DNA of 48,534 nt from Thermoplasmata archaeon (GTDB lineage Archaea > Thermoplasmatota > Thermoplasmata > Lutacidiplasmatales > UBA184). The DNA is taken from positions 1 to 48,534 of the forward strand of contig JAJZYH010000011.1 in assembly GCA_021798195.1 (NCBI GenBank), in the 5' to 3' direction. This document shows positions 17,037-19,349 of this stretch, one piece after another. How positions within the stretch are numbered: the stretch's first letter is position 1; every line of letters begins with the position of its first letter. Made by a program: the position numbers and the translations under genes. The notes below the pieces were generated by a model. That model saw only the letters and a program-made list of their open reading frames with translations, was not told the origin of the DNA and did not search any database.

Positions 17037-17918
17037 GTGCCTTCCCGGAAATATGGGAGTCCTCCGGAAGGCCCTTCGCGCACCCCTCCGGAGTTCCGGT
17101 ATCCCGGGGACATCCGACGGGTCCGCTTCCGGGAGCGGAAGAACCGGTTCCTCGTCGAGGTGGAAGGTCCCCCGGGAACTGTGTTCCCGGCCCACCTGAG
17201 GAATCCCGGACGCATGCGGGAACTCCTGCGGGAGGGAGACACGTGGGGGCACGTGGTGAGCGCCTCTCCGGGATCCCCTCGGTCCACCCGATGGACGCTG
17301 GTGGACGTCGAGTCCCCCGCCGACCCTTCCATTCTCGTTTCGGTGGATGCGGTGATCACGAACCACCTCGTCCACCAGTGGCTGGGGGAGGGGTGGCTCT
17401 TCCCCGAGGTCTCCGCGTGGGGGCCCTGGCGGCGGGAGGTGCCCTGGATGGACTGCCGGTTCGACGAAGGATCGGTGGGTGGCATTCCCGGAGCGCCTCC
17501 CCGCGCGCTCCTCGAGGTCAAGAGCTCCAACCTCCGTGGAGGCCCGGCGGCCCTCTTCCCGGACGCCCCCACGCGGAGGGGGGCCCATCACGTGGACCGG
17601 CTCACGGAATTCGCCTCCTCCGGAGGTCGTGCCGCCCTCCTCTTCGTGGCCCAGAGGTGCGACGTGAGGGAGATCCGGCCCTACGGTGCCATGGACCCCC
17701 GGTTCTCCCGGGCGGTGGAGCGGGCTGCGGCGGCGGGGGTGCACATCCTGGGTTGTCGGGTCCGGGTGCGTCCGGGAGGGATCCGGTTCGCGGGTCGCCT
17801 GCCGGTCCGCGCCCCCCGCTGGACCCCCCTGGGACCTCCGGAGGAAGAACGCCATGCCCCACCAAGGAGACGAAATAGGGGAGGGACGTTCCGGGGGCGC
17901 CAGGGATTCCCTTCATGA
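17037..17918 (+). CDS. sfsA: SfsA-family nuclease
   Basis: 293 residues. SfsA proteins have an OB-like N-terminal domain and a PD-(D/E)xK nuclease-like C-terminal domain; the E. coli protein was first linked to maltose metabolism and later shown to bind and cut nucleic acid. Family marks are PGDIRRVRFRERKNRFLVEVE near the start, FPAHLRNPGRMRELL, VITNHLVHQWL and the catalytic LLEVKSSNL, followed by THHVDRL-like and LLFVAQR stretches. The start is GTG 17037, with GGGGAG ten bases upstream. It ends in an ATGA overlap with the phosphopantothenate synthetase gene. Confidence 0.85.
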   Translation: MPSRKYGSPPEGPSRTPPEFRYPGDIRRVRFRERKNRFLVEVEGPPGTVFPAHLRNPGRMRELLREGDTWGHVVSASPGSPRSTRWTLVDVESPADPSILVSVDAVITNHLVHQWLGEGWLFPEVSAWGPWRREVPWMDCRFDEGSVGGIPGAPPRALLEVKSSNLRGGPAALFPDAPTRRGAHHVDRLTEFASSGGRAALLFVAQRCDVREIRPYGAMDPRFSRAVERAAAAGVHILGCRVRVRPGGIRFAGRLPVRAPRWTPLGPPEEERHAPPRRRNRGGTFRGRQGFPS

Positions 17919-18703
17919 CCGTGATCCCCCGAACGCATCCGCGCTACCGGAGCCTCCGGGTCCGGGCCGATCTCGCCGAGAAGATGCGGGAGGGCCTTGT
18001 GGCTCCAGAAGGGCTCATGGCCCACGGCCGCGGGGAGGCGTTCGATTATCTTCTGGGGGAGCGGACCTCGCCGGAGGCCCGGGCGGCCATCCGGGCCGCG
18101 GCGGCACGGATCCTCCTGGCGCGCCGCCCCGTCTTTTCCGTGAACGGGAACGTGGCGGCGTTGGCCGCGCGGGACGTCGCCCGACTGGTGGCTCGCTACC
18201 CCCGCCTCCGCGTGGAGGTGAACCTCTTCCACCGCACCCCCCAGCGGGCCCGGGATGTGGCCCAGGTGCTCCAAAGGGCGGGATTGCGGGAGATCCTCGG
18301 GATCCGACCCACCGCACGCCTGCGCGGGCTCCCCTCCGACCGGGGATGGGTCGACGCCCGCGGTATCCTCCGCGCGGATCTCGTGGTGGTTCCCCTGGAG
18401 GACGGGGACCGGGCAGAGGCGCTCCGTGCCGCCGGGAAGTGCGTGATCTCCATCGATCTCAACCCGCTCTCGCGCACCTCGCGCACCGCGGACCTCCCCA
18501 TCGTGGACGAGTTGACGCGGGCCCTGCGCCTCCTCGCGCGGGACCTCAAGGAGCTCTCCGGGGAACCGAAGGAGAGGCTCCGGGCCCTCGCGAGCGCGGT
18601 CCAGGGAGAGGATCTCAGGTCCCGGAGCCTCGAACGGATCCGGAAGCGCCTCCGGACCCTCGCCCGGGAGGAGCCGCGAGCACGGCCCGGGCCGGCGGGA
18701 TGA
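17915..18703 (+). CDS. Archaeal phosphopantothenate synthetase (4-phosphopantoate-beta-alanine ligase)
   Basis: 262 residues of the archaeal family COG1701, which joins 4-phosphopantoate to beta-alanine using ATP on the archaeal route to coenzyme A. Characteristic stretches are IPRTHPRYRSL, APEGLMAHGRGEAFDYLLGE, PVFSVNGNVAAL, EVNLFHRT, RGWVDARGI, VVPLEDGDRAEAL and SIDLNPLSRTSRTA. It begins inside the sfsA stop (ATGA), so translation is probably coupled. The Arg-rich tail overlaps the convergent GAF gene by 89 bases. The partner pantoate kinase is not in the window. Confidence 0.92.
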   Translation: MTVIPRTHPRYRSLRVRADLAEKMREGLVAPEGLMAHGRGEAFDYLLGERTSPEARAAIRAAAARILLARRPVFSVNGNVAALAARDVARLVARYPRLRVEVNLFHRTPQRARDVAQVLQRAGLREILGIRPTARLRGLPSDRGWVDARGILRADLVVVPLEDGDRAEALRAAGKCVISIDLNPLSRTSRTADLPIVDELTRALRLLARDLKELSGEPKERLRALASAVQGEDLRSRSLERIRKRLRTLAREEPRARPGPAG

Positions 18704-19160
18704 GCTGGACCGCGATCGCCTCCAGGAACCGGCGATCGGAGGCATCGTAGGCCGCCACCGCCTTCCCGTCGATGTCGATCTCCCCCAGGACCTCCCCTCC
18801 CTCCCGGATGGGAACCACGATCTCGCTGCGGGTATCGAGGAAGCAAGCGAGGTAGTCCGAGGAACTCCTCACGTCATCCACCGTCACCGTCCGCCGCTCC
18901 CTCGCCGCCATCCCGCAGATCCCCCGGTCCAGTGGGATCCGGGTGTGCTCCGTGGCCTGCTCTCCGTCCCAGGCCGCCAGGAAGAGCTCCCGTCCCTCGA
19001 GAAGGTAGATCCCCACCCAGCTGTAATGGGAAAATCCTCGCCGGAGCCAGGAGCAGATCCTCTCCAGGGCGGGGGCCCCCGGGGGCCCCTGGGAGATGAT
19101 CCGGGCCGCCTCGCGCAGGGCTTCCCGGTACCGTGGCTCGGGGATGTTCTCGGGAGACAT
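18615..19160 (-). CDS. GAF-domain protein resembling free methionine-(R)-sulfoxide reductase
   Basis: 181 residues, essentially one GAF domain. The segments WVGIYLLEG, TRIPLDRGICGMAA, YLACFLDTRSEIVVPI and GEIDIDG match fRMsr enzymes, which reduce free methionine-R-sulfoxide. C82 (GICG) and C106 (YLAC) correspond to two of the three redox cysteines of the E. coli enzyme. The third (VAC-x-RIP in E. coli) is replaced by ATEHTRIP. A reductase with two cysteines, or a small-molecule sensor, are both possible. Of two ATGs six bases apart I chose 19160 because GGAAGG is better spaced from it. The C-terminal Gly/Ser-rich tail overlaps the convergent gene. Confidence 0.75.
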   Translation of the reverse strand: MSPENIPEPRYREALREAARIISQGPPGAPALERICSWLRRGFSHYSWVGIYLLEGRELFLAAWDGEQATEHTRIPLDRGICGMAARERRTVTVDDVRSSSDYLACFLDTRSEIVVPIREGGEVLGEIDIDGKAVAAYDASDRRFLEAIAVQLIPPARAVLAAPPGRGSGGASGSVRGSGT

Positions 19161-19197
19161 CGCCATGGACCTTCCGTCACGCTCCGCGCGAAGGGGC

Positions 19198-19314
19198 GCC
19201 GAGGGGGAGAGTTTCCACCGGAGGGGAAGTCCCCCCACCGGTCTTTGAACTCCCGCGGTGGAGACCACCACGAGCTTTCCAGACTCGCGCCGTACCGGAC
19301 TGAGCCACCTCGGC
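19198..19314 (-). tRNA. tRNA-Ser(GGA) with a 33-base intron in the T-loop
   Basis: Read on the minus strand, acceptor GCCGAGG (19314-19308) pairs perfectly with CCTCGGC (19204-19198). The anticodon stem CGAGT/GCTCG closes the loop CTGGAAA, giving anticodon GGA. A long class II variable arm follows (GGTGG-TCT-CCACC), and the discriminator is G, as for serine. The T-stem GGGAG/CTCCC is intact, but the loop between its strands is 40 bases instead of 7. Removing about 33 bases (near 19212-19244) leaves TTCAACT, a normal T-loop, and an 84-base tRNA. The insert itself folds (ACCGG with CCGGT, GGGG with CCCC). CCA is not encoded. A TATA-like element lies about 30 bases upstream. Confidence 0.85.
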
Positions 19315-19340: not shown

Positions 19341-19349
19341 TCATATGAA
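19341..19349 (-). promoter_or_regulatory. TATA-like element for tRNA-Ser
   Basis: Read on the minus strand, TTCATATGA is centred about 31 bases before the first base of the mature tRNA, a normal archaeal spacing that leaves a leader of about five bases. Confidence 0.5.

Follow-up and report, generated by a model that had tools for sequence, protein, structure and literature searches.

How can a serine tRNA whose T-stem encloses 40 nt be made in an archaeon that does not belong to the Thermoproteota? The question is raised by a tRNA-Ser(GGA) gene in a 48,534-nucleotide stretch of DNA (the window) from a soil archaeon, a Thermoplasmatota relative of Candidatus Lutacidiplasma. The gene lies on the minus strand, with a cloverleaf that ends exactly at 19314 and 19198 (Table 1). 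Its acceptor stem (GCCGAGG/CCTCGGC) forms seven of seven pairs and its T-stem (GGGAG/CTCCC) five of five, which confirms the class II tRNA-Ser fold with an oversized T-arm described in an earlier note on this DNA. The anticodon loop, CTGGAAA, carries GGA, and the variable arm is long. ARAGORN reported zero tRNAs in the window, and Rfam gave nothing there at the gathering score, the best hit being a partial, sub-threshold tRNA match of 20 bits. Once 33 nt are taken out, ARAGORN recognizes a full-length tRNA-Ser(gga), while the unspliced form yields no call. Another sub-threshold Rfam hit, DUF3800-XI over the insert (13.7 bits, E 0.98), is on the opposite strand and was treated as chance. Downstream of the tRNA, also on the minus strand, a gene for a GAF-domain protein (18618-19166) starts after a gap of about 32 bases.

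Table 1. Features of the tRNA-Ser(GGA) locus, in window coordinates.
Feature	Position	Strand	Basis
tRNA-Ser(GGA) gene with intron, 117 nt (mature 84 nt)	19198..19314	-	cloverleaf; ARAGORN call after splicing only
5' exon side: T-stem GGGAG and T-loop UUCAAA (54-59)	19244..19254	-	pair counts, covariation
U54-A57, exon half of the central BHB helix	19249-19246	-	pair counts, covariation
T-loop intron, 33 nt, position 59/60, GACCGGTGGGGGGACTTCCCCTCCGGTGGAAAC	19211..19243	-	intronless orthologues; conserved position in relatives
Intron hairpin, inner helix ACCGG/CCGGU and GGGG/CCCC	19217..19242	-	fold, compensatory changes
Intron half of the central BHB helix, GGAA	19213..19216	-	partner counts
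3' exon: U60, T-stem CUCCC, acceptor CCUCGGC	19198..19210	-	
Anticodon GGA	19278..19280	-	sequence, ARAGORN
Possible TATA-like element TTCATATG, about 30 bases upstream of the gene	19342..19349	-	sequence; suggestive only

Both the ARAGORN calls before and after removal and a comparison with intronless orthologues document that taking out the intron restores a canonical tRNA. The same tRNA is intronless in four genomes (G002, G008, G020 and G024; loci L263-L266) of a sister genus, g3, in the same family, where it reads GGGAGTTCAAATCTCCC, and the predicted spliced sequence, GGGAGTTCAAATCTCCCCCTCGGC, is identical to these orthologues. The junction falls after position 59, at TTCAAA|T, and leaves the mature loop TTCAAAT. 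A junction at TTCAA|CT is ruled out, since the intronless orthologues have TTCAAAT. The earlier note was thus right to see a T-loop intron and right about its length of about 33 bases, but its boundaries (near 19212-19244, restoring TTCAACT) were off by one base. Matches were obtained in 98 family genomes; in most of these the alignment crosses the insert at the same position, and in the relatives that were parsed the Ser(GGA) intron is 31-33 nt long with its position kept. Given this alignment across most matching family genomes, and a helix kept by compensatory changes (below), the insert is real and not a product of chance.

That the insert forms its own helix had been recognized before, together with the view that a canonical bulge-helix-bulge (BHB) could not be drawn. 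A near-canonical one can, in which U54U55C56A57 pairs with the intron bases GGAA, flanked by a 5' bulge, AA|G, and a 3' bulge, AC|U. T-loop introns in general share this layout: the T-stem is followed by U54U55C56R57, which pairs with intron bases -6 to -3, the 5' bulge is A58A59|N, the intron hairpin comes next, and the 3' bulge is NN|U60. Across 15 T-arms from seven isotypes, 87% of cells are paired over the whole structure, and there are 50 double-change cells compared with 17 +/- 3 in shuffles (kinship uncorrected); sliding the structure by a single base makes the pairing collapse. The insert helix is therefore preserved through compensatory changes, across genera.

On the exon side, the central helix is built from the T-loop itself. 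In a set of 58 introns, 21-42 nt long, the partner of C56 is G in every case, and U55 and U54 always face A or G. Residue 57 covaries with its intron partner in 63 introns, G57 facing C in 14 of 14 and A57 facing G in 45 of 49 but never U, even though A-U is a standard pair (Fisher p = 8e-11, kinship uncorrected). Both states are found within Arg(UCU) (nine A.G, seven G-C), and likewise within Gly(UCC), the isotype labels in this set being those of ARAGORN, which are unreliable where a gene still holds a second intron. The Ser(GGA) helix has three standard pairs and, as the fourth, A57.G at the helix end, while sibling tRNAs with G57 have a canonical BHB. Judged from its pairing, the Ser(GGA) motif is near-canonical and slightly relaxed, because the fourth central pair is A.G; the relaxed motif proposed earlier holds to that extent and not for the rest of the BHB. 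When T-arms are folded alone, those of Gly(UCC) and Lys(UUU) adopt the BHB and that of Gln(CUG) nearly does; in the minimum-energy fold for Ser(GGA) the T-stem and intron hairpin form, and the central helix is open. The minimum-energy fold of the whole pre-tRNA is a mixed structure and was set aside as evidence.

The Ser(GGA) intron has company. About 15 of the about 40 tRNA genes found in this genome bear introns, compared with 92-95% of tRNA genes in the Asgard Atabeyarchaeia and Freyarchaeia (PMC11291895), which likewise lie outside the Thermoproteota and have many non-canonical introns, several per gene. About ten are T-loop introns at 59/60, in Ser(GGA), Ser(GCU), Ala(GGC), Asp(GUC), Gln(CUG), Gly(UCC), His(GUG), Arg(UCU), Arg(UCG) and Lys(UUU). 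Three genes have D-loop introns. The one in Lys(UUU), which has a 4-bp central helix, is present besides the T-loop intron, and removal of both leads ARAGORN to call tRNA-Lys; those in Arg(GCG) and Leu(UAG) are likely, with exact junctions less certain than for Lys. By-eye reading places introns at 37/38 in Met(CAU), Tyr(GUA) and Leu(UAA).

We searched 150 genomes of the class with a covariance model built on the intron-bearing T-arm. These many-genome searches scored the best 30-40 candidates, so the counts are lower bounds, and they carry a small error: of 30 loci checked by script, one (L250) is no tRNA and another, at a contig edge (L235), looks spurious. All 24 genomes of the window's family had matches, at least 5-13 per genome. 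Among the best candidates scored, there were none in three genomes from other families of the order, and mostly none or one in other families of the class, with up to five in one of them (f22). A phylum-wide search that used a stricter E-value and scored fewer candidates gave at least 4-10 matches in eight genomes of the Lutacidiplasma family and one match each in 8 of 188 genomes outside it. There are 13 T-loop matches in Candidatus Lutacidiplasma silvani AcS3-62 and 11 in AcS5-107, and most of the matches inspected outside the family are complete tRNAs. On these matches, T-loop introns number 4-13 per genome in the Lutacidiplasma family and are sparse yet real elsewhere in the phylum. In other Thermoplasmata families, two tRNA-Lys(UUU) genes (L138 and L140) carry three introns, in the D-loop, at 37/38 and in the T-loop, and give a perfect 73-nt tRNA-Lys when all three are removed. 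A Ser(UGA) gene (L142) has a putative D-loop intron. Three tRNA-Trp(CCA)-like genes in other classes of the phylum (L275, L276 and L280) have the T-loop as a second intron site; by-eye reading finds C/D-box-like motifs in their anticodon intron.

Which enzyme could remove such introns? Reviews describe the alpha'2 EndA as narrow in specificity (PMC6379350) and the Euryarchaeota that own alpha4 or alpha'2 enzymes as having single introns at 37/38, with non-canonical introns going together with (alpha-beta)2 or epsilon2 enzymes (PMC6379350, PMC4090602, PMC4033280). This published correlation, along with the A57.G mismatch that slightly relaxes the motif, speaks for the broad-specificity endonuclease suspected in the earlier note, be it an (alpha-beta)2 or epsilon2 enzyme or one with an extra subunit encoded outside the assembly. 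We regard that as unlikely. Typing the endonuclease, as the earlier note had advised, found a sole EndA in this genome, a single chain of 375 residues in which PF01974 and PF02778 each match twice; nearly all class genomes with a match show this two-repeat layout as well. The proteins nearest to it come from Thermoplasmata MAGs, among them the AcS/SubAcS series and Candidatus Lutacidiplasma silvani AcS3-62. The C-terminal catalytic Tyr-His-Lys (Y306, H321, K352) is invariant in an alignment across the class. The loop between FG and LSL has 8 residues, as in Archaeoglobus fulgidus and compared with 18 in Aeropyrum pernix, so there is no CSL/ASL specificity loop by this comparison of lengths. 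The structural model (pLDDT 86) best matches fused Methanopyrus kandleri and A. fulgidus alpha'2 enzymes (Foldseek 1RLV/2GJW), and the A. fulgidus alpha'2 structures rank above epsilon2. On sequence and model, the enzyme is of the alpha'2 homodimer type, and no sign of a broad-specificity endonuclease emerged. The homodimeric EndA of Ferroplasma, also in the Thermoplasmata, can at 30 C cut a mini-BHB that lacks a tRNA body (PMC8707768). Since homodimeric enzymes cleave a canonical BHB in this way, a BHB in the T-arm should be cleavable too, the A.G variant being set apart.

The other explanations concern the insert rather than the enzyme. A decaying pseudogene, or an enlarged T-loop that is retained and never spliced, would fit with the gene having been missed by ARAGORN and by Rfam at the gathering score. 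We consider this highly improbable, as the exons are intact, the insert helix is compensated across genera and other isotypes have an insert at the identical position. In addition, no second Ser(GGA) gene, which the earlier note had raised as a point against splicing here, was found in the 95.7%-complete assembly, and UCC accounts for 71 of 127 serine codons in seven window genes, more than any other. An equally slight chance attaches to an intron of a different kind, self-splicing or mobile. Its presence in some genera and absence from others is as in mobile introns, but at 21-42 nt these introns are too short for a catalytic core, and there was no match to an Rfam intron family; group I, group II and mobile introns were rejected on length and on the BHB.

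The explanation we favor, and hold with high confidence, is that the locus is an essential tRNA-Ser(GGA) gene whose transcript carries a BHB intron at 59/60 and is cut by the alpha'2-type EndA and joined by RtcB, which is encoded in the genome (PF01139, E 1.8e-165). In this model, the T-stem would remain paired in the precursor while U54-A57 pair with the last intron bases, the 3-nt bulges AA|G and AC|U would carry the two cut sites, EndA would cleave in both, and RtcB would ligate the halves to give the T-loop UUCAAAU. The spliced junction is predicted to read TTCAAATCTCCC, with the body GCCGAGGTGGCTCAG... We infer that EndA alone may suffice. The Ser(GGA) intron would then be one of a set of T- and D-loop introns that spread in the Lutacidiplasma family.

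T-loop introns at 59/60 are already known as a kind (PMC4090602), the site being on the published list for the non-canonical BHB introns of Thermoproteales, other Crenarchaeota and Thaumarchaeota. The introns described here resemble those in having a BHB at the exon-intron junctions and several introns per tRNA; they differ in that the host is a Thermoplasmatota archaeon, the EndA is of the alpha'2 and not the (alpha-beta)2 type, and 59/60 dominates among the introns found. Enzyme type and BHB geometry are shared with the canonical 37/38 introns of Euryarchaeota (alpha'2 or alpha4 EndA), in contrast to which the introns here occupy T-loop (and D-loop) sites, and related families have tRNAs with as many as three. 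The novelty lies in the lineage and the scale, in the occurrence of such introns alongside an alpha'2 enzyme, and in the way residue 57 covaries across the exon-intron boundary. In the literature searched, with many subscription papers outside it, we found no report of T-loop introns in Thermoplasmatota; the founding paper of the order used tRNAscan-SE, and the word intron is absent from its main text (PMC9287336).

As the reviews link alpha'2 enzymes with introns at the canonical 37/38 site, the Lutacidiplasma lineage is an exception. We think it reasonably likely, with less assurance than for the Ser(GGA) gene itself, that the spread of T- and D-loop introns in Thermoplasmatota, similar to that in Thermoproteales, was supported by an ordinary alpha'2 EndA lacking specificity loops, with the invariant T-loop UUCR serving as half of the recognition helix and the pair at residue 57 alternating between G-C and A.G. 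If so, enzyme type would not restrict the sites of archaeal tRNA introns. An entire Thermoplasmatota family whose genomes have 4-13 T-loop introns each, with an alpha'2 EndA as the sole type found, is a clear counter-example to the account in which non-canonical introns co-evolve with broad-specificity endonucleases (PMC4090602, PMC4033280). Since ARAGORN and Rfam miss or mis-fold many such genes, the tRNA sets of these soil archaea will seem incomplete when compiled with such tools.

Other tRNA loci in the same genome also stand out. A near-identical pair of tRNA-Leu(CAA) genes (L065 and L066, G000:C38:15399-15483 and 17147-17231) lies 1.7 kb apart. A degenerate copy of tRNA-Lys(CUU), with the anticodon changed to CGU (L062, G000:C52:102228-102300), is 5.5 kb away from the intact gene. 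Finally, a second Cys-like tRNA (GCA) is bacterial-looking and could reflect contamination or transfer (L053, G000:C4:5149-5221).
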